From: Alphaproteobacteria bacterium
GTDB taxonomy: Bacteria > Pseudomonadota > Alphaproteobacteria > CAAHEQ01 > UBA3637
Assembly: GCA_017466695.1 (NCBI GenBank)
Contig: JAFTTR010000017.1
Coordinates: forward strand, 62,001-126,000
DNA: 64,000 nt
Direction of reading: 5' to 3'
Below the pieces are notes generated by a model that searched no databases, was not told the origin of the DNA, and saw only the letters and a list, made by a program, of their open reading frames with translations. Position 1 is the first letter of the stretch. Every line of letters begins with the position of its first letter. Position numbers and translations under genes: made by a program. Positions 543-11,515 of this stretch are shown piece by piece.

Positions 543-1607
543 CTAAAAAAAACGTATCCCACAAAAATAATATTTCTTTTTCTTGTTTTTTTCACGTATT
601 TTTAGAATTGTCAATTTGTTGAACAGTTTTATTCTTGTGGTGTTTTCCAAGTATTTAGAAAGGAATTTTTGAGGAGTATTTAAAAGTTTAATAACTTTTT
701 TCCATTCTTCATCAAAAAGATTTTCTTTTAACAATCCTTGTTGATTTGCTTTTTTAAATTCATTATAAAATGTTTTAAAAAATTCTTCTTTAAATTCATA
801 AGCGACTCTTTTAAGATTCCAATGATACGTGTCAAATTTTAAACGCCAAAGCAAAGGAATATAGTCTTCCATTTTACGTTCTTTTAAAAAGCGTTCCATT
901 TCATCATATTCATCTTTAACACAAAATATTTTTGCTTTATTATTGATTGAAGAGGATTCATTATCTTGACGATAGTGAAGATATGCCTTTTCTGTCAAAT
1001 AGATTTTTTTTGCTGTTGCCCAAATTTTAAAAGCAAAAGAAGTATCTTGATAAGAAGCACCAGCTGTTTCAAGAAGTCTTAAATTATTTTTTGTGATAAA
1101 ATCTCTTTTATAAATTGCCGACCAAATACAAGGCATAACTTTAAAGATATTAAAATCTTTTTGAGGTTCAATAACTTTTCCATAATAATCTTGTGGAAAT
1201 AATGATTTAATTTTGTTGAGGTGTGGTTTAGTTGACCAATAGAAGTGAAAATTACTTTTCACAACATCAACATTGTGTGTTGTTGCAAGGTTATATAATT
1301 CTTCAAACATATTAGGTTCAATAAAATCATCCGATTCCACAATACCAATATATTCACCAGTTGCAACTTTTAACCCATGATTAACAGCTTTTCCATACCC
1401 ACCATTTTCTTGATGAATTGCAATTACACGTGAATCTTTTTTTGCATATTCATCCACGATAGCTGGACAATTGTCTTTTGAACCATCATCAACAAGGATG
1501 ATTTCAATTTCTTTAAGTGTCTGTGCTAAAATACTGTCCACACATTCATGAATATATTTTTCCACACCATAAATTGGTACAATAATTGATACTTTTGCTT
1601 GTGTCAT
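543..1607 (-). CDS. GT2 family glycosyltransferase
   Basis: A 354-residue GT-A fold glycosyltransferase. The N-terminal 110 residues hold the GT2 signatures: KVSIIVPIYGVEKYI, LVDDGS near residue 40 and the metal-binding region VESDDFIEP near residue 92. It presumably transfers a nucleotide-activated sugar to a lipid-linked glycan at the inner face of the membrane. Its first 300 bases are nearly identical to those of the other GT2 gene at 5196-6311, while the C-terminal halves differ. The acceptor- and donor-specific part is therefore unique to this copy. The C-terminus is strongly basic and aromatic (KKKKYYFCGIRFF), which could aid membrane contact. Its start overlaps the preceding acyltransferase stop by 4 nt (ATGA). 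Confidence 0.9.
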   Translation of the reverse strand: MTQAKVSIIVPIYGVEKYIHECVDSILAQTLKEIEIILVDDGSKDNCPAIVDEYAKKDSRVIAIHQENGGYGKAVNHGLKVATGEYIGIVESDDFIEPNMFEELYNLATTHNVDVVKSNFHFYWSTKPHLNKIKSLFPQDYYGKVIEPQKDFNIFKVMPCIWSAIYKRDFITKNNLRLLETAGASYQDTSFAFKIWATAKKIYLTEKAYLHYRQDNESSSINNKAKIFCVKDEYDEMERFLKERKMEDYIPLLWRLKFDTYHWNLKRVAYEFKEEFFKTFYNEFKKANQQGLLKENLFDEEWKKVIKLLNTPQKFLSKYLENTTRIKLFNKLTILKIREKNKKKKYYFCGIRFF

Positions 1608-2329
1608 TTTGATTCCCTATTATAAATTGATGCGTTTTCACGTAGCCATTTTATTTTTTCTTTTATTTTTTTTGCTGGATTTCCTGCATATATGCAATTT
1701 TTTTCGTTATGATTTTTATTTAATAATGAATTCGCTCCCAAAATACTATTATCGGGAAGAACAGCTTTTTTTAGAATTAAACATCTTCTACCTATCCAGC
1801 AATGATTACCAATCATAATTTCACATATATTATTTACAACATTTCCTTTTTCATCTAAAATAGCATGACCATCTGTTCTAATTTCAATATCATTACTAAA
1901 CATGCAATCATCCCCTATATCTAAGATTGCATTATCTTCATTAATAAAAATGCTGGTTTTTTCTGAAGAAAAATTATTTCCTATTCTTATTTGTCGATTA
2001 TGATTTCTCCACTTGCAAGAAATTTCTAATTCTATGGTATATGGTGAAGAACCCAATTCTATTAAATTATTATCTCCTACTAAATCGATTTTTGATTTTA
2101 CAAAGTTTGGTAGGGGAGTATGAAAAATAACCTTATTATTGTTCCCATGAATCCTTATATCAACATTATTAATTGTTTTTACTTCTTTTTTGTTGTTTTT
2201 ATACACCAATATAATTTTGTTATCATATCCTTTGATTTTAGGCAGCGTATTGTATTTTTTTCTAAACTCTTTCCTCTTTTGTTTATTAAAAATAAAAGAA
2301 GCCATAATTTGAATGATAAGTTTATTCAT
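1604..2329 (-). CDS. Left-handed beta-helix (hexapeptide) acyltransferase
   Basis: A 241-residue protein of the WbbJ/LacA-type hexapeptide-repeat acyltransferases. Hexapeptide-like turns run from about residue 65 to 215 (VDIRIHGNNNKV, LVGDNNLIEL, MIGNHCWIGRRC, DNSILGANSLL). It ends in the usual YAGNPAKKIKEK tail. The expected role is O-acetylation or other acylation of a sugar in the surface glycan, with acetyl-CoA as donor. The first 25 residues are hydrophobic and then basic (FIFNKQKRKEFRKKY), closely resembling the N-terminus of LicD in the same operon. It is translationally coupled to the downstream GT2 gene by a 4-nt overlap. The substrate cannot be read from the sequence. Confidence 0.85.
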   Translation of the reverse strand: MNKLIIQIMASFIFNKQKRKEFRKKYNTLPKIKGYDNKIILVYKNNKKEVKTINNVDIRIHGNNNKVIFHTPLPNFVKSKIDLVGDNNLIELGSSPYTIELEISCKWRNHNRQIRIGNNFSSEKTSIFINEDNAILDIGDDCMFSNDIEIRTDGHAILDEKGNVVNNICEIMIGNHCWIGRRCLILKKAVLPDNSILGANSLLNKNHNEKNCIYAGNPAKKIKEKIKWLRENASIYNRESK

Positions 2330-2335
2330 ATTAAT

Positions 2336-2797
2336 TCATCCTTTTATTTCTATATTTTGTGGAAAATGATTATCTACTGTATTTTGTAATTTTTGATAAT
2401 TGTTATAAATACGTTTTTTTAAAGAAGAAGAACTAACACCATCTCCATATGGAAAATATACCACTGTCACACCATGTTCTTCCAAATAATCATATTTTCC
2501 AGTCCAATCATCACCTACAACAAATATATCAAAATTTAATTTTTTGACCTTATCTGAGTGATCCAATGATTTCTGAGGAATTACAATATCTGGATATTTT
2601 AAAGCTTTTACAAGAGCAATTCTTTCTTCAAATGGGATAATCGGTTGAGATTTATATGAAGCCACTAGCTCATCTGTATTCACACCAACAATAAGAATAT
2701 CACCTAAAGCTCTAGCATACTCAATCATCTTTAAATGATTAGCGTGAAGCATATCAAATGTGCCAGAAGTATACACAACAATCTTATTTTTAATCAT
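2336..2797 (-). CDS. Cytidylyltransferase-like protein (TagD/GCT family)
   Basis: A 153-residue nucleotidyltransferase of the HIGH superfamily. YTSGTFDMLHANHLKMIEYA (residues 9-28) is the GxFDxxHxGH-type nucleotide-binding site, although the second motif position reads HANH. Residues ISSTxxR-type are represented by GVSSSSLKKRI near residue 122. Family members such as glycerol-3-phosphate cytidylyltransferase couple CTP to a small phosphorylated alcohol. The gene overlaps the upstream aminotransferase by 8 nt and shares an operon with LicD. It probably makes the CDP-activated group that LicD transfers. The actual substrate (glycerol phosphate, an aminoalcohol phosphate or an aminophosphonate) is not determined by sequence alone. 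Confidence 0.82.
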   Translation of the reverse strand: MIKNKIVVYTSGTFDMLHANHLKMIEYARALGDILIVGVNTDELVASYKSQPIIPFEERIALVKALKYPDIVIPQKSLDHSDKVKKLNFDIFVVGDDWTGKYDYLEEHGVTVVYFPYGDGVSSSSLKKRIYNNYQKLQNTVDNHFPQNIEIKG

Positions 2798-3878
2798 TTT
2801 TCTTTTCCCTTAACTTATTAGATATTTCTTTCATTTTTTCAATTAAGAAATCAATGTCTTGCATGAACAAGTTCCCAACATGGGAAACTCGTAAAAGTTT
2901 ATCTTTTAAATCACCACCACATGGATTTACAAAAATACGATATTTATTTTGTAGTTCGATAAAAACATCATAAGCACTAATATCAGTAAATATGACAGGT
3001 GTTAACATATTTGATAATTTATAAGTATCAGGTATCTGAAAACCTAATTGAATTATCTTTTCTCTAAAATAAAAACATCTATCTTCAATTCGTTTTAACC
3101 AGTTTTCTTTTCCTGTACTAGATATTAATTTTAACATTTCCCTAAGTTCATACATGATATACACTGCAGGGGTATAAGGAGTTTGACCCCTTGTGATATT
3201 GGAAAGATAATCTTTAAAATTAAAATAAGATGAACCCAAAATATTGTTTGACAGTACTTTCTCTTTCATCCTCTTGCTAAAAGCAACAAAAGATAAGCCA
3301 GGAGATAAAGATAAACCTTTTTGTGATGAAAATATTGTAACATCTATACCATATTTATCCATTTCATAGTTATCAGCTAAAAAAGTACTTATCGCATCTA
3401 CAATGAAATACATTTGATTTTTTTTGCAAAAATCAGCTAACATATTAATATCATAAAGTTGACCTGTAGAAGTTTCATGTAAATTGACAATTAATGATGT
3501 ATATCCTCTTTTTTCATATGGCATCAGATGATTTTTAGTCAATTGTTCATTCCATTTTAAATTTATGCTATCAAAAGGTATATTATGCCAAGCCAATAAT
3601 TGGCAAAAGCGCTGACCAAAACTACCACCATTTATAACCAACACTTTATCTGTTTGAGATAAACAGTTTTCAATAGATGCTTCCATTGCTGCTGTTCCTG
3701 ATGCTGTTAGATAAATTATGTTATTGTTATACTCGGTTCCTAATAAGTCAGCCAACAACTGCATACAATTTCTTACCATACTTCCATATTCTTCTGTTCT
3801 AAAATATGGAAATCCATTTTGGTATACCGCCATTGTTTCTGGGAATGCTTCTACAGGGCCAACTGTAAATAATTTCAT
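2790..3878 (-). CDS. Class V aminotransferase (AEP/alanine-glyoxylate type)
   Basis: A PLP-dependent fold type I aminotransferase of 362 residues. The start is placed at ATG 3878 because GAGGTG sits 4 nt upstream and the product then begins MKLFTVGPVEAFPE, as in the family; the longer frame to 3914 adds a low-complexity leader. TASGTAAMEA is the cofactor phosphate-binding loop, VDAISTF holds the Asp that contacts the pyridine nitrogen, and SSQKGLSLSPGL holds the Schiff-base lysine. Relatives include 2-aminoethylphosphonate and alanine-glyoxylate transaminases. Its overlap with the nucleotidylyltransferase gene and its position next to LicD suggest it makes the amino group of a CDP-activated decoration. 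Substrate assignment is inference. Confidence 0.85.
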   Translation of the reverse strand: MKLFTVGPVEAFPETMAVYQNGFPYFRTEEYGSMVRNCMQLLADLLGTEYNNNIIYLTASGTAAMEASIENCLSQTDKVLVINGGSFGQRFCQLLAWHNIPFDSINLKWNEQLTKNHLMPYEKRGYTSLIVNLHETSTGQLYDINMLADFCKKNQMYFIVDAISTFLADNYEMDKYGIDVTIFSSQKGLSLSPGLSFVAFSKRMKEKVLSNNILGSSYFNFKDYLSNITRGQTPYTPAVYIMYELREMLKLISSTGKENWLKRIEDRCFYFREKIIQLGFQIPDTYKLSNMLTPVIFTDISAYDVFIELQNKYRIFVNPCGGDLKDKLLRVSHVGNLFMQDIDFLIEKMKEISNKLREKKND

Positions 3879-3900
3879 TTTCACCTCACAATTAAAAAAT

Positions 3901-4884
3901 TTATTTTTTTTCATTGTATGAACATAAATTTTCTAAATCATTAGTATTCAATTCAGAAAACGATAAATGGGAATTATATATTTCTGGAACATAATAATCC
4001 CCATAATAATCATACAGAATTTTTTTATACTTATTTGGAACAAAAAAATTATGTCCTTCAAAATTAAGTTCAATCAATGGGAAAATATCATTAATATCAA
4101 AGACAATTGGTTTTGAATTAATTGTTTCAGTGCCTAAAAAAATATTTTTACATTTTTGATGCGAAATAAGTTTTTTTTGCTCTTCATTCATTTCGTTTTC
4201 TACATTAACAAATCCTTTTAAAGATAATTCATTTTTTTTATATGACTTAATTTTGTTTGAATAAATGATAGAAATAATTTCTTTTGCTTTTTCACTTGTT
4301 ATACCATCATTTAAGTAATAATAAGGAAAGATATCATTTGCAAAATATAATTTATCCTGTTTTTCCCAATTAAAAAAAGCAATCCATTCTCTTTCGGTTT
4401 GTGGAACAAATTTTTTATGTAAACATTTTCCAATGTGGGATGGTATTTTTTTAAAAATAAAGTTTTTTTCTTCTTTTTGAATAACCTCTTGAAATTTTAT
4501 ATAATCATCATACAGCATTGCTACATCAACATCATCATCCCAAGGAATAAAACCTTTATGACGAACAGAACCTAACAATGTACCAAAATCTAACCAATAA
4601 GAAATGTTATGCTTTCTACAAATTGCATCTATTTCTATTAAAATATCTAGATTTAAGAGTTGAACAGTTCTAAAAAGCCCTTTAGCTGGAGGCAATTTTG
4701 TAATATCAGTTGTGCTTTTAATTAAATTTTCAATATAATTAATTTTTTCATTTAACTCTTTTATTTCATAACATAAATTTTTTAATTCCATTTTTTTATT
4801 TTTTAGATATTTTTTTCTAAAATGATGTCTATTTTTTTTCTTAAAAATAAAACAAGAAATTAAATTAACGAATATTTTTTTCAT
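3901..4884 (-). CDS. LicD family phosphotransferase
   Basis: A 327-residue LicD-family protein. The diagnostic block is near residues 90-125: YWLDFGTLLGSVRHKGFIPW followed directly by DDDVD, with the acidic residues that bind metal in this nucleotidyltransferase-fold family. LicD enzymes move phosphocholine or a comparable CDP-activated group onto a cell-surface sugar. The N-terminal 60 residues are hydrophobic, then very basic, then predicted coiled coil, and resemble the start of the acyltransferase at 1604-2329. Directly downstream are the aminotransferase and nucleotidylyltransferase that could supply its donor. No choline kinase gene is visible, so phosphocholine itself is not the safest guess. 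Confidence 0.9.
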   Translation of the reverse strand: MKKIFVNLISCFIFKKKNRHHFRKKYLKNKKMELKNLCYEIKELNEKINYIENLIKSTTDITKLPPAKGLFRTVQLLNLDILIEIDAICRKHNISYWLDFGTLLGSVRHKGFIPWDDDVDVAMLYDDYIKFQEVIQKEEKNFIFKKIPSHIGKCLHKKFVPQTEREWIAFFNWEKQDKLYFANDIFPYYYLNDGITSEKAKEIISIIYSNKIKSYKKNELSLKGFVNVENEMNEEQKKLISHQKCKNIFLGTETINSKPIVFDINDIFPLIELNFEGHNFFVPNKYKKILYDYYGDYYVPEIYNSHLSFSELNTNDLENLCSYNEKK

Positions 4885-4890
4885 TACTGA

Positions 4891-5184
4891 CTAACCCTTA
4901 TATTTAAACAATGAATTCCACATAAATAAATTTTTAATAGCTTTATATGGTTTATCTTCAAGAATCCAATCTACAACAGTCACTCTAGACGGATATAAAT
5001 CTGAAATACGCTGTGCAACTTTCAACGTTCTATTTTTATCATAGGTTCCAAAACCATTTTGTAAAATAAAAAAATGAACGTCTGGAGGGGTCATTTCCAA
5101 ATAATTTGGCAAACTTATTTCTAAAGATTCATAATCTTCACAACTTAAAATAACAATAGCCGTTTTTGATAAGATATTATTCAC
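4891..5184 (-). pseudogene. Truncated glycosyltransferase fragment
   Basis: The product is only 97 residues from a GTG start with a good AGGAGA site 6 nt upstream. It opens like a GT-A glycosyltransferase (TAIVILSCEDYESLEISLPN, then FFILQNGFG), but the frame stops at residue 97, before any DxD motif or acceptor domain. Full-length relatives would be around 250-300 residues. Only 6 nt separate the stop from the LicD start, so the missing part is not simply in another frame downstream. I read it as the N-terminal remnant of a glycosyltransferase left by recombination within the glycan locus. A functional short protein is possible but less likely. Confidence 0.6.
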
Positions 5185-5195
5185 AAATTCTCCTA

Positions 5196-6311
5196 CTACA
5201 ATTTAATTTTAATTAATGCTGGTCTATGGTCAAAGTTTTTACTCACTTGAATACCTAATAATTGAATACAAAAAATATCTTTTTTTGTATTTATAGAGAA
5301 AAAAAAGCGTCTTATAGTTTTCAATCTAAAATATCTTTTGTACTTATAAAAAATAAGCCAAACCAATTTACCAGTTGAAATTCGTTTTAAAAATTCATGC
5401 TCTTTTTTCTCAAAAAACTTATTTGTTTGAACAATACTCTGCGGCAAACCATTTACCCAATTTAAAAGTATATTTTTAACTCTTTTCAAATGATTAATGC
5501 CGCCCCTCATATCTATGATAATATGCATATAAGCTATTTCTCTTTTAATCAAAAAAGCCCACACATCATCTGTAATATTTGATTGTGTTTTTAACCACTT
5601 ATGAATCTCCATTGAACGATTATAAGGTATCATTGCATCTTTTAAATCAAGAGATTCATTTAAATTAAACTTCCTATATGTATACAAAATATCTGAAATA
5701 AAAGAAATTCTCTGAGAAAGTATTAGAGTTTGAACTTGAAATAAATTATCTTGCCAAGCTGCTCCAGGGATTTCATTCATAAAAATTTTATGCTCTTTTA
5801 TTAAATCTTTTTTGTAGATACAAGACCAAATACTCGGGTGAAAATATAAAAGAGTTGGTATTTCATTTATAGAACAAGGAAATTTCGCATTTTTTAATTT
5901 TTTTTCCATCTGTGAAGAAATTTTTTGATTGTTTTCAATAAACCAACTGAAAAAATTACATTTTATTATATCTGCATTTATTCGCTTAGCTTCCACATAT
6001 AATTTTTCATACATATTAGGTTCAATAAAATCATCCGATTCCACAATACCAATATATTCACCAGTTGCAACTTTTAACCCATGATTAACAGCTTTTCCAT
6101 ACCCACCATTTTCTTGATGAATTGCAATTATACGTGAATCTTTTTTTACATATTCATCCACGATAGCTGGACAATTATCTTTTGAACCATCATCTACGAG
6201 AATGATTTCGATTTCTTTAAGTGTCTGTGCTAAAATACTATCCACACATTGATGGATATATTTTTCTACTCCATAAATTGGTACAATAATTGATACTTTT
6301 GGTTGACTCAT
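5196..6311 (-). CDS. GT2 family glycosyltransferase
   Basis: A 371-residue GT2 enzyme. The start is set at ATG 6311 (MSQPKVSIIVPIYG) because AGGAGAG lies 6 nt upstream; the longer frame to 6335 runs back into glf. Motifs are LVDDGS and VESDDFIEPNMYE. The first 100 residues are almost the same as in the GT2 gene at 543-1607, even at the DNA level, whereas residues beyond 110 are unrelated or very diverged. This points to a modular exchange of the acceptor half. It sits 1 nt after the glf stop, so translation is probably coupled. Acceptor and donor are unknown. Confidence 0.9.
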   Translation of the reverse strand: MSQPKVSIIVPIYGVEKYIHQCVDSILAQTLKEIEIILVDDGSKDNCPAIVDEYVKKDSRIIAIHQENGGYGKAVNHGLKVATGEYIGIVESDDFIEPNMYEKLYVEAKRINADIIKCNFFSWFIENNQKISSQMEKKLKNAKFPCSINEIPTLLYFHPSIWSCIYKKDLIKEHKIFMNEIPGAAWQDNLFQVQTLILSQRISFISDILYTYRKFNLNESLDLKDAMIPYNRSMEIHKWLKTQSNITDDVWAFLIKREIAYMHIIIDMRGGINHLKRVKNILLNWVNGLPQSIVQTNKFFEKKEHEFLKRISTGKLVWLIFYKYKRYFRLKTIRRFFFSINTKKDIFCIQLLGIQVSKNFDHRPALIKIKL

Positions 6312-6312
6312 C

Positions 6313-7422
6313 TTACACTCTCCTGACCTCATCAAAAAGTTCTAAAGCTCGATTAATTGCTTTATCCATATCATAATATTTGTAATCACCCAACCGACCG
6401 AGGAAATAGACATTTTTTAGCTCTTTTGCTTTGTTTAAATATTGCGTATATAATTCAGCGCTTTTTTCATTTGGAATTGGGTAATAACGTTCGTTTTTTC
6501 CACGTTCAAAAAATTCAGAATATTCTTTTGCTATCACCGTCTTAGGTGATTTGTTATCAAGGTAATATTTATATTCATGAATACGTGTGAAATCATAATT
6601 ACATGGATAATTCACGCAGGCATTTGATTGATAATATTCTTTATCATATTCTTCAAACTTAAAATGAACACTTCGATAAGGTAACTCACCAAATTCATAG
6701 TTAAAAAATTCATCAATCGGCCCTGTGTAAAAAACCCTATCAAATTGTTCTGATACATCTTCATAACGTGTGTTTAACCGAAGTTCAATATTTGGATGAT
6801 TTATCATATTTTTAACAAGCTCAGTGTATCCATTCAAAGGAATACCTTGATATTTATCTTGAAAATATCGTGGATCACAACTCAAATAAACAGGAACTCT
6901 TGCCGTTACGGCTCCATCAACTTCATTGGGTGAAACACCCCATTGTTTTGTGGTATAGTGTAAAAAAACTTTTTCATATACATAATTGGCAAGAAATTTT
7001 AAATCTTCATCTTCTTGTTTTTGAAACTCTAAAATAGGTACTTTTTTATTATATTCAAAACGGGATAATAATTTTTCTTCCATCCTTTGTGCAAGCGTAT
7101 GGGGAAACACATCATAAAGCGTTCTAAAATTAAAGGGAATATTCGTTTCAACCCCATCTATCAAAGCAATCACTTTATGCATATATGTATTAAATTTTGA
7201 AAATCGTGTTACAAATTGCCAAACATTTTCTAAATTCGTATGAAAAATATGAGATCCATATTTATGAATCATAATCCCATTTTTATCTTCATAATCAAAA
7301 GCATTCCCTGCAATATGAGCCTTAGCATCAATAATTACAACTTTTTGATTTAATTCTTCAGCAATTTTTCTTGCCATAGTGGCTCCTGAAAAACCACACC
7401 CTACGACTAAATTTGTTGTCAT
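6313..7422 (-). CDS. glf: UDP-galactopyranose mutase
   Basis: A flavoenzyme of 369 residues that interconverts UDP-galactopyranose and UDP-galactofuranose, the donor for galactofuranose in surface polysaccharides. The N-terminal dinucleotide-binding motif VVGCGFSGATMARKIAEE is followed by GSHIFHTN near residue 60. Conserved C-terminal blocks include FTRIHEYKYY and YPIPNEKSAELY, then LGRLGDYKYYDMD. The start at ATG 7422 is preferred because AGGGGT lies 5-6 nt upstream and the protein then begins at the Rossmann strand. It follows the recombinase-like gene by 13 nt and is the first biosynthetic gene of the operon. One or both GT2 enzymes may therefore use UDP-Galf. Confidence 0.95.
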   Translation of the reverse strand: MTTNLVVGCGFSGATMARKIAEELNQKVVIIDAKAHIAGNAFDYEDKNGIMIHKYGSHIFHTNLENVWQFVTRFSKFNTYMHKVIALIDGVETNIPFNFRTLYDVFPHTLAQRMEEKLLSRFEYNKKVPILEFQKQEDEDLKFLANYVYEKVFLHYTTKQWGVSPNEVDGAVTARVPVYLSCDPRYFQDKYQGIPLNGYTELVKNMINHPNIELRLNTRYEDVSEQFDRVFYTGPIDEFFNYEFGELPYRSVHFKFEEYDKEYYQSNACVNYPCNYDFTRIHEYKYYLDNKSPKTVIAKEYSEFFERGKNERYYPIPNEKSAELYTQYLNKAKELKNVYFLGRLGDYKYYDMDKAINRALELFDEVRRV

Positions 7423-7435
7423 TCTTACCCCTTTT

Positions 7436-8008
7436 TCACCTCGACCCATTTTGGCGTTCAAAATTAAAAATGGTGCGAGAAGTTACACCGACTGTTTTGG
7501 CAATTTGAGATTTCGAAACACCGTTTTTAAGCGATTGAAAAATAAAATCTTTATGCACCTCGCACAGAGATGGCTTTTTATTCTTCGAGCCTATGTGCCG
7601 ACCAACTTTTTCACCATTTTCTCTCTTTTTTTGAATTGTGTTTTTTATTACAAACGAGTGACACATTTTTTTGATATCTATGGCAATTTCCATTCCTTTT
7701 ATAAGGGTTTCACTCTTTTCCCCTTCAAAAAACTCATATCCCTCTGTAACACAAACAATATTCAACCCTTGTTTTGTAAACGCTTTTAAAACAGATTTTA
7801 TCTCCTCAAGTGAAGAACCTAAATCAAACACATTCGAAACAAAAAATATACTTCCCTCCCCTCTCTTTTGCCCTGATGAAAGAAATCTCCTTTTATCCGT
7901 ATAACAAATTTGAATATCATCTTGTTGAAAATTATATTTTTTCAATAAGTTGTTTTTTTCTTCTAAAGACAATTTTTTCAAACCGTTATCAAAATAAACC
8001 TTTTTCAT
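7436..8008 (-). CDS. Degenerate serine recombinase-like HTH protein
   Basis: A 190-residue protein with the outline of a resolvase/invertase. Residues 52-92 (GSIFFVSNVFDLGSSLEEIK and on to CVTEGYEF) match the catalytic core strand and helix, and residues 128-186 match the C-terminal linker (GEKVGRHIGSKNK) and Hin-like helix-turn-helix (GVSKSQIAKTVGVTSRTIFN). The catalytic residues look lost. Where active enzymes read YxRVST, this one reads YFDNGL, and the usual LDRLGRS reads VFDLGSS. It may have become a DNA-binding regulator. It is the first gene of the glycan operon and lies just downstream of an inverted-repeat-flanked promoter. The loss of catalysis is inferred by eye alignment. Confidence 0.65.
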   Translation of the reverse strand: MKKVYFDNGLKKLSLEEKNNLLKKYNFQQDDIQICYTDKRRFLSSGQKRGEGSIFFVSNVFDLGSSLEEIKSVLKAFTKQGLNIVCVTEGYEFFEGEKSETLIKGMEIAIDIKKMCHSFVIKNTIQKKRENGEKVGRHIGSKNKKPSLCEVHKDFIFQSLKNGVSKSQIAKTVGVTSRTIFNFERQNGSR

Positions 8009-8023
8009 CTTTTCTTTTCAATT

Positions 8024-8049
8024 TTTAAAAGTGTGTAATTTTAAGGGTC
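8024..8049. repeat. Left inverted repeat of candidate invertible promoter
   Basis: A 26-bp sequence whose core is gtgtaattttaagggtc, preceded by tttaaaagt. Its reverse complement recurs at 8174-8199 with 3 mismatches in 26 positions, only one of them inside the 17-bp core. It lies just downstream of the predicted transcription start of the glycan operon. It could be a recombination site or an operator. Confidence 0.8.
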
Positions 8050-8059
8050 ATTAAATTTG

Positions 8060-8088
8060 CTTATAACATACCTATTTATACATTGCAA
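8060..8088 (-). promoter_or_regulatory. Sigma-70-type promoter of the glycan operon, inside the inverted repeats
   Basis: Reading the minus strand, TTGCAA is separated by exactly 17 nt from TATAAG. The predicted transcript starts near 8053, crosses the left inverted repeat and enters the recombinase-like gene at 8008. I found no equally good promoter between 8008 and the end of the visible operon. The same TTGCAA-17-TATAAT architecture drives def at 12085. The element is entirely contained in the 124 bp between the two 26-bp inverted repeats. Confidence 0.6.
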
Positions 8089-8173
8089 GGTGTTTAAAAA
8101 AAAGATTTGTAATTCATTGGATTATTTCAAGATACTTTTTTTGAATAAAGGTAGAAAAGTGTGTAAAAAAAAC

Positions 8174-8199
8174 GACCCTTAAATTTACACGGTTTTAAA
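8174..8199. repeat. Right inverted repeat of candidate invertible promoter
   Basis: The inverted partner of 8024-8049, with core gacccttaaatttacac followed by ggttttaaa. Together the two arms frame 124 bp that hold the only promoter seen for the glycan operon. It is followed by about 28 nt and then a terminator hairpin, so inversion would point the promoter at a terminator. Confidence 0.8.
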
Positions 8200-8227
8200 T
8201 TAAGATAACTATTTGATATAACGAAAA

Positions 8228-8256
8228 AAATCCCCCATTTTTACATGAGAGATTTT
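8228..8256. terminator. Terminator hairpin, probably bidirectional
   Basis: An 11-bp stem (aaatcccccat with atgagagattt, two G-U pairs on one strand) has a 6-base loop and is flanked by A and T runs on both sides. On the minus strand it ends the prepilin-like gene that stops at 8284. On the plus strand it would stop any transcript leaving the inverted-repeat element to the right. Confidence 0.7.
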
Positions 8257-8283
8257 TTTATTTTTTAATACAATTAATTGTTA

Positions 8284-8778
8284 TTATTGAAAGCTGTTCA
8301 ACGTTTTTTTATCAGCCTTTAACATAACTTCAACAACACCAGAAGAAACCTCAACTGATCCTTGTGTATACGTTTTTTCATAAGGAGATGAAACATCAAA
8401 ACCAAACTTGTCTAACAAATTAAATTTTGTACATGAACTCTTAACATCACAATCAAGCGTCTTCATCCCAAATGTGATAACAACTTTTTTAAGTGGCGTT
8501 GAATTTTCCGTTCCATCTTCATTCATAAATGAAACTTGCTCTGTTTGAATAGAATGAATCCCTTTGGGAAGAGCAATACGCAATTCTCTCGCACTGATAT
8601 TTTTTTCTTTTGTTTTTGCCACTGTCAAAACTTTTGAAATTGCTTGAGAAAGCTGTGTTTCCCACCAACGTTCTTTGGCGTAATCGTACGTTACCAAACC
8701 AGCAACAGACACAATCGCCAAAACCATTAAAACCCCCAACATTTCAACCATCGAACGACCTGATTGTTGTTTTTTCAT
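8284..8778 (-). CDS. Type IV prepilin-like protein
   Basis: A 164-residue protein with a class III (prepilin peptidase) leader. Six residues, MKKQQS, precede G|RSMVEMLGVLMVLAIVSVAG, with the Glu at position +5 of the mature chain and one hydrophobic helix. The rest is a small globular domain with two cysteines (DCDVKSSC) that could form a disulfide. ATG 8778 is preferred over the in-frame TTG at 8784 because AAGGGG lies 7 nt upstream. It should be inserted in the inner membrane and assembled in a type IV pilus or type II secretion pseudopilus. A paralogue with the same leader is at 11039. It lies downstream of an LptM-like gene and argS on the same strand. Confidence 0.8.
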   Translation of the reverse strand: MKKQQSGRSMVEMLGVLMVLAIVSVAGLVTYDYAKERWWETQLSQAISKVLTVAKTKEKNISARELRIALPKGIHSIQTEQVSFMNEDGTENSTPLKKVVITFGMKTLDCDVKSSCTKFNLLDKFGFDVSSPYEKTYTQGSVEVSSGVVEVMLKADKKTLNSFQ

Positions 8779-8793
8779 ATTCAATCCCCTTTT

Positions 8794-11038: not shown

Positions 11039-11515
11039 ATGAAAAAACAGCAATCTGGTCGATCAATGATTGAAATGTTAGGCGTTCTTGCTATTATCGG
11101 CGTTCTCTCCATTGGAGGTATTATAGGGTACACCACAGCTATGAACAACTATCAAGCTGACCAAATTATTGATGCTTCTAATAAATACTCCTTCCATGTA
11201 TTTGAGTTATGTCAAAAAATATATAACAATAAAACAACAGGATTACAGGCTATTAAATTTTGCTCCCCTGCTACACCTGGGATGCAAACGTTTAAAGATT
11301 CTAAAATTGCAGCCATCCCTTTTGGTATTTATAAACAAGGTATTTCTTTTTCAAAAATAAAAGAACCAACACCTAATGTTTTTGAGGTCTATATTGAACA
11401 TAAATTAAAATCAAAAGATGTTTGTGAAGCAATCAAATCTCTAACTCATCAAAAAAGTGGCTGCATTGAAGACGAAGCGCCTTATGTTTTAACCATTCCT
11501 TTTAAGCAAAATTAA
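11039..11515 (+). CDS. Type IV prepilin-like protein
   Basis: A 158-residue protein with the leader MKKQQSG and mature start RSMIEMLGVLAIIGVLSIGG, including the conserved Glu at +5. The single hydrophobic helix spans about residues 8-30. The first 13 codons differ from the paralogue at 8284-8778 only at silent sites and one residue, while the bodies differ. Four cysteines are present in the globular part (LCQK, KFCSP, DVCEA, SGCIE), suggesting two disulfides outside the inner membrane. It is a monocistronic unit with its own promoter. It would need a prepilin peptidase and an assembly ATPase encoded elsewhere; whether it is a pilus subunit or a secretion pseudopilin is unresolved. Confidence 0.8.
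   Translation: MKKQQSGRSMIEMLGVLAIIGVLSIGGIIGYTTAMNNYQADQIIDASNKYSFHVFELCQKIYNNKTTGLQAIKFCSPATPGMQTFKDSKIAAIPFGIYKQGISFSKIKEPTPNVFEVYIEHKLKSKDVCEAIKSLTHQKSGCIEDEAPYVLTIPFKQN

Follow-up and report, generated by a model that had tools for sequence, protein, structure and literature searches.

Ahead of a surface-glycan operon in a gut alphaproteobacterium, a pair of inverted repeats frames a single promoter, an arrangement that may mark either a segment of DNA that is flipped to switch the operon or a pair of operators for the HTH protein encoded beside it. We pursued this question in the window, the whole stretch of 64,000 nucleotides in which the locus lies, and in the genome of origin and related genomes. 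The element is, in all likelihood, a site-specific invertible promoter (inverton) served in trans by an Mpi-family invertase and probably tuned by a catalytically dead paralogue, and the window switch is one of a genome-wide Mpi-like system. By flipping promoter segments that lie between matched recombination sites, the bacterium appears to turn a surface-sugar operon, as well as families of surface proteins, on and off.

Two inverted 26-bp sites frame the promoter of a glycan operon

The original prediction had placed 26-bp inverted repeats at 8024-8049 and 8174-8199, and both are present, with 23 of 26 positions complementary; the best arms extend to 8024-8052 and 8171-8199 (25/29 complementary). 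When the intergenic region (8009-8283) was dinucleotide-shuffled 1000 times, no shuffle equalled the observed repeats, the shuffled 26-mers reaching a mean of 18.3 and a maximum of 22 and the shuffled 29-mers a mean of 19.7 and a maximum of 24. Each arm belongs to a larger 26-bp dyad site (12-2-12), and the two sites lie 128 bp apart from centre to centre. The proximal recombination site, GTAATTTTAAGG-GT-CATTAAATTTGC (8035-8060, plus strand, core GT at 8047-8048), matches the genome-wide site pattern given below without mismatch on the minus strand; the distal site, GTAAAAAAAACG-AC-CCTTAAATTTAC (8163-8188, plus strand, core AC at 8175-8176), also has no mismatch and is inverted relative to the proximal one. 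As in the Hin/hix type of site, each has a 2-bp core between two half-sites of 12 bp, and the cores are identical after inversion; on contig C5 of the same genome the site is a perfect 12-2-12 palindrome. The predicted invertible segment, measured core to core, spans 8049-8174, and homologous segments are known both ways round.

Between the repeats, as predicted, lies the promoter TTGCAA-17-TATAAG on the minus strand (8060-8088; TTGCAA at 8083-8088, TATAAG at 8060-8065), which faces the glycan operon and leaves the switch ON as sequenced. Our automatic promoter scan requires T at position 6 of the -10 hexamer and therefore omits this promoter from its list. Its -10 hexamer directly adjoins the proximal site, which places the predicted transcription start within this site. 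The same geometry recurs on contigs C20 and C24 of the window's own genome and on C63 of a congener (G005), and it is mirrored, in the OFF sense, on its own C5 and on C34 of a second congener (G003). Beyond the distal site, where a terminator had been noted outside the far repeat, a stem with a T run occupies 8224-8259 (arms 8224-8238 and 8245-8259), which would face the promoter after inversion. A prepilin-like open reading frame follows on this terminator side (8284-8784, minus strand), with a weak N_methyl match (E = 0.027). Short prepilin-like reading frames that start MKKQxSGRSMxEMLGVLA recur, at 8284-8784 (minus) and 11039-11515 (plus) in the window and at loci L034 and L071.

Downstream of the promoter, on the minus strand, sugar-pathway and transferase domains bear out the surface-glycan assignment (543-7461): the matches comprise a UDP-galactopyranose mutase (GLF), two family-2 glycosyltransferases (GT2), LicD, a class-V aminotransferase, a cytidylyltransferase and a hexapeptide transferase. 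The operon had been described as holding ten genes, of which nine minus-strand reading frames are found between 543 and 8008; a tenth would fall below 543.

The first gene of the operon encodes a degenerate Mpi-like recombinase

The protein encoded by the operon's first gene (7436-8008, minus strand) had been noted as an HTH protein; it is not an ordinary repressor. Its C-terminal HTH holds up, but the match to NF009949 (E = 7.8e-15) and the alignment identify it as a degenerate, catalytically dead Mpi-like serine recombinase. Among NCBIfam models the master DNA invertase Mpi family fits it best, at 55.1 bits and below that family's cut-off of 272. Aligned to 23 intact invertases from the genus, it shows neither the serine of YxRVS nor the arginines of SRLGR. 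Judged by its residues, the protein is a homologue of Mpi and not an active member of the family. Pfam and NCBIfam scans of it return recombinase and HTH matches only, with no homology to UpxY (NusG-like) or UpxZ, and a scan of the genome contigs with the dead protein as query detected no relative.

Three homologues share the same catalytic loss, on C5 of the same genome, on C34 of G003 and on C63 of G005. The four dead proteins form one group (support 100/100) and score 282-300 bits against a joint profile, the next match among 43 genomes of the family reaching 77. Their alignment holds 25 invariant columns, of which 22 lie in the last 80 residues, the exceptions being M1, L21 and L74; a single-sequence fold of the window protein (mean pLDDT 46) is confident only in the C-terminal HTH region and was set aside. 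All four genes lead glycan operons, and all four are preceded by the common type of site, with two sites at three of the loci; at C5 the contig end falls within the second site. A second, separate degenerate recombinase homologue (76.6 bits), encoded in a different genus of the family (G023 C62, locus L122), has no such sites upstream and was set aside.

A common site recurs across three genomes

We searched for the pattern RNAAWWHWAABGACCVTTWDWWTTNY on both strands, allowing at most two mismatches, with the reversed pattern as control. Matches far outnumber those of the control in the window's own genome (G000; 31 vs 8) and in two congeners, the metagenome-assembled genomes (MAGs) RGIG6438 from sheep rectum (G003; 58 vs 6) and RGIG9879 from yak rectum (G005; 39 vs 8), many sites being counted on both strands because they are near-palindromic. 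Seven other genomes of the genus have 0-1 match each (1 mismatch). Adjacent pairs occur in G000, G003 and G005 and are all inverted bar one, on C14 of G000, which is direct; they nearly always stand head-to-head around a single promoter at spacings of ~118-130 or ~263-278 bp. Such invertible-promoter loci, dispersed yet sharing one site, are most evident in G003 and G005, and the window's own genome has fewer site pairs than either.

The two spacings correspond to two kinds of target. The short class (118-130 bp) heads glycan-type operons, and in four of its five loci the dead recombinase gene leads the operon; on C20 of G000 the segment heads an AlgX/MBOAT operon. The long class (263-278 bp) heads paralogous surface proteins with the N-terminus MTNYSRTTLRELKKRYLN or similar, one of which, on C21 of G000, has an autotransporter beta-domain (E = 1.7e-32). 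Segments of this class carry their promoter, of the extended -10 type (TGGTATAAT), at one of their two ends. Across G003, G005 and G000 (loci L070, L074-L086 and L092-L100), a large paralogous autotransporter-like family has each gene behind its own ~263-278-bp invertible promoter. A surface-protein locus on G003 C65 (L084:4065-4090) has one intact site and a decayed partner and is apparently locked ON.

Two further arrangements depart from the inverted pair. A lone, perfectly palindromic site on C24 of G000 (C24:1279-1304; L071) abuts the TTGCAA-17-TATTTG promoter of a prepilin-like gene; this promoter cannot invert and, with no partner seen, the site is probably an operator. On C14 of G000 (L067:4460-4588), a gene for a PM0188-type sialyltransferase is preceded by two direct-orientation sites separated by 103 bp. 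Together, the unpaired and the direct sites indicate that some sites in this genome do not serve inversion.

A candidate Mpi-family invertase lies on another contig

Four places in G000 resemble PF00239. Two are the dead proteins, a third is a large serine recombinase (C14), and the fourth, on C11 (27959-28561), is a small invertase that is intact. The last is the candidate enzyme, scoring 293.2 bits against NF009949 (cut-off 272) with RVS and SRLGR present, alongside 294 and 287 bits for the proteins of L017 and L018. Its orthologues in G003 and G005 likewise exceed the cut-off and keep the catalytic motifs, and the gene occupies one syntenic place in all three genomes. The co-occurrence of enzyme and sites in these three related genomes suggests that the C11 enzyme may act on them. 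Mpi-family proteins are also encoded by the alphaproteobacterial MAG L116 and by Treponema, in genomes that carry none of these sites, which makes the site itself lineage-specific.

Homologous segments are found in both orientations

The original prediction had called for a comparison of orientation among related genomes, and both promoter orientations were found across homologous loci. Every complete locus has one operon flank and one terminator flank, with the promoter inside. The promoter end lies beside the operon flank (ON) at the window, C21 of G000, C16 of G003 and C20 and C63 of G005, and the complete loci in the OFF state are C34, C12b, C35a, C35b, C42, C45, C51, C52, C65b and C73 of G003 and C52 of G005; these promoters and flank types are consensus readings, the flank types finally set by eye. 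Terminator stems holding AACAAAAGG mimic operon flanks in the automatic typing, and those at G003 C42L and at G005 C13s, C13e, C58, C3e and C12 were retyped in this way. Half-loci at contig ends include both ON and OFF kinds. An earlier notion that one switch is ON per genome was dropped, as several half-loci of G005 are ON-type.

When a segment changes orientation its inner half-sites go with it: CGTTTTTTTTAC is the inner half at the non-promoter end both in the window (ON) and on C5 of G000 (OFF). The segments of C5 and C20 are 76% identical and align in opposite orientation (z = 14.4 vs 2.6), the operon side of C20 being less certain since genes diverge from both sides. The window segment resembles its homologues weakly (z 2.7-4.3), and the window locus is seen one way round only; inversion at the window locus itself is what we infer from the sequences of its homologues.

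The end of C5 and the start of C32 share exactly 141 identical bp, the sole two full copies in the assembly. This piece is the invertible segment; its non-promoter end meets the operon flank in C5, whereas in C32 that end meets a terminator flank. In the simplest reading the two contigs would be one locus present in both orientations; alternatively, they would be two loci with an identical segment oppositely oriented, which would also imply inversion. We infer the join between the contigs from a 141-bp match that resembles a de Bruijn overlap and that a second identical copy of the segment elsewhere could also yield. At the start of C12 in G003, a terminator flank and the segment are followed by the same terminator flank inverted, the 48 terminal bases reappearing inverted, a structure expected if both junctions are present. 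The 141-bp overlaps of C13/C12 and C43/C48 in G005 were dropped as evidence of inversion, since their junctions are consistently OFF and strain variation seems to account for them.

These observations bear on three other accounts. It is highly improbable that the sites are operators only, with the dead recombinase binding both, perhaps as a tetramer looping the 128 bp, and repressing its own operon in the absence of inversion. The loss of catalytic residues in the neighbouring protein, the almost wholly C-terminal invariant columns of its family, the lone C24 and direct C14 sites and the -10 abutting the proximal site would all suit such an account, but homologous segments differ in orientation between loci, C5 and C32 display both junctions, the autotransporter-like genes have site pairs with no dead protein nearby, and an intact Mpi-family invertase is encoded. 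Very unlikely, too, is a former inverton frozen ON, in which the dead protein would be what is left of an ancestral local invertase and the window segment would have stopped flipping. The local homologue is indeed dead, the half-sites have diverged, and G003 C65a shows that sites do decay to a one-site, ON-facing state; both window sites nevertheless match the pattern without mismatch and keep their GT/AC cores, the four dead genes are still open with a conserved DNA-binding domain, unlike a decaying relic, and a trans enzyme is available. An origin of the repeats from a MITE-like mobile element, as its remnants or copies, with opposite orientations reflecting independent insertions, is barely credible: near-identical 277-bp segments do occur in many places, and many contigs terminate within one, but complete loci all have an operon-type and a terminator-type flank with the promoter inside, and the short segments have diverged yet retain site, promoter and spacing.

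Discussion

The phase-switch reading advanced in the original prediction is supported by segments whose orientation varies between homologous loci and contigs, by paired sites that flank one promoter and by an intact invertase in trans. We propose that the C11 serine invertase would synapse the two 26-bp sites, cut at their 2-bp cores and flip 8049-8174, after which the promoter would face the stem at 8224-8259 and the glycan operon would be OFF. The same enzyme would also flip the ~263-278-bp promoter segments ahead of autotransporter-like surface proteins. The degenerate Mpi paralogue, its DNA-binding domain retained and its catalysis lost, is predicted to bind the same sites and tune the switch, either by repressing the promoter, whose -10 adjoins the proximal site, or by competition with the active enzyme, or by both.

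The dead recombinase probably regulates these sites from within the locus itself, and it may repress the promoter, compete with the active invertase, or do both. Its retained DNA-binding domain, its place behind its own switch and the lone C24 site favour an operator role besides recombination, and the operator alternative that accompanied the original prediction may hold as well, with the neighbour a catalytically dead recombinase and a lone site standing at a non-invertible promoter. More tentatively, and as less likely than not, we suggest a pseudo-recombinase switch memory, in which the dead paralogue, produced solely in the ON state of its operon, would occupy the shared sites, repress its own promoter and shield or bias the switch at its own and other loci. 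If true, an invertase without catalytic activity would thereby mediate feedback and cross-talk among the surface antigens.

Sites of the Hin/hix serine invertases are 26 bp long, with two 12-bp half-sites around a 2-bp core, and occur as an inverted pair. The window sites share this 12-2-12 build and the inverted pairing; unlike Hin/hix, the present system has many loci, short segments and an invertase gene outside the segment. Jiang et al. reportedly surveyed invertons in gut bacteria with PhaseFinder in 2019. The gut-bacterial invertons found by PhaseFinder have inverted repeats around surface-gene promoters (PMC11892184); here, too, repeats flank a surface-gene promoter, but a common site and a candidate enzyme can be named, which opens metagenomes already available to the scoring of orientation. 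Literature searches of partial coverage found no paper joining "inverton" with "Alphaproteobacteria" and none on point for catalytically dead invertases as regulators; given that coverage, the absence of precedent is a lead and not proof of novelty.

The closest likeness is to Bacteroides fragilis, where Mpi inverts 13 regions, seven of them capsule promoters, according to PMC4747536, which cites Coyne et al. (2003). Both systems combine one trans Mpi-family serine invertase, whose action we propose here, with scattered invertible promoters and with surface glycan and protein targets, a likeness of enzyme, layout and targets, and our findings would extend the Mpi-style, many-locus phase variation of Bacteroides to uncultured gut alphaproteobacteria. 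They differ in that the host is an alphaproteobacterium, the promoters are sigma-70-like (TTGNAA-17-TATNNN), and the operon's first gene is a dead recombinase paralogue in place of UpxY/UpxZ. UpxY and UpxZ are second-layer regulators of Bacteroides capsule loci that act on transcriptional antitermination (PMC12632263). Like them, the window protein would be a regulator encoded at the locus, by the first gene behind the glycan operon's invertible promoter; unlike them, it derives from a recombinase, has an HTH and would, as predicted, act at recombination sites. The new part is the dead recombinase as an added component of a many-locus, Mpi-like invertible-promoter system, possibly a new regulatory layer in which the operons under the invertase's control themselves encode dead versions of it.
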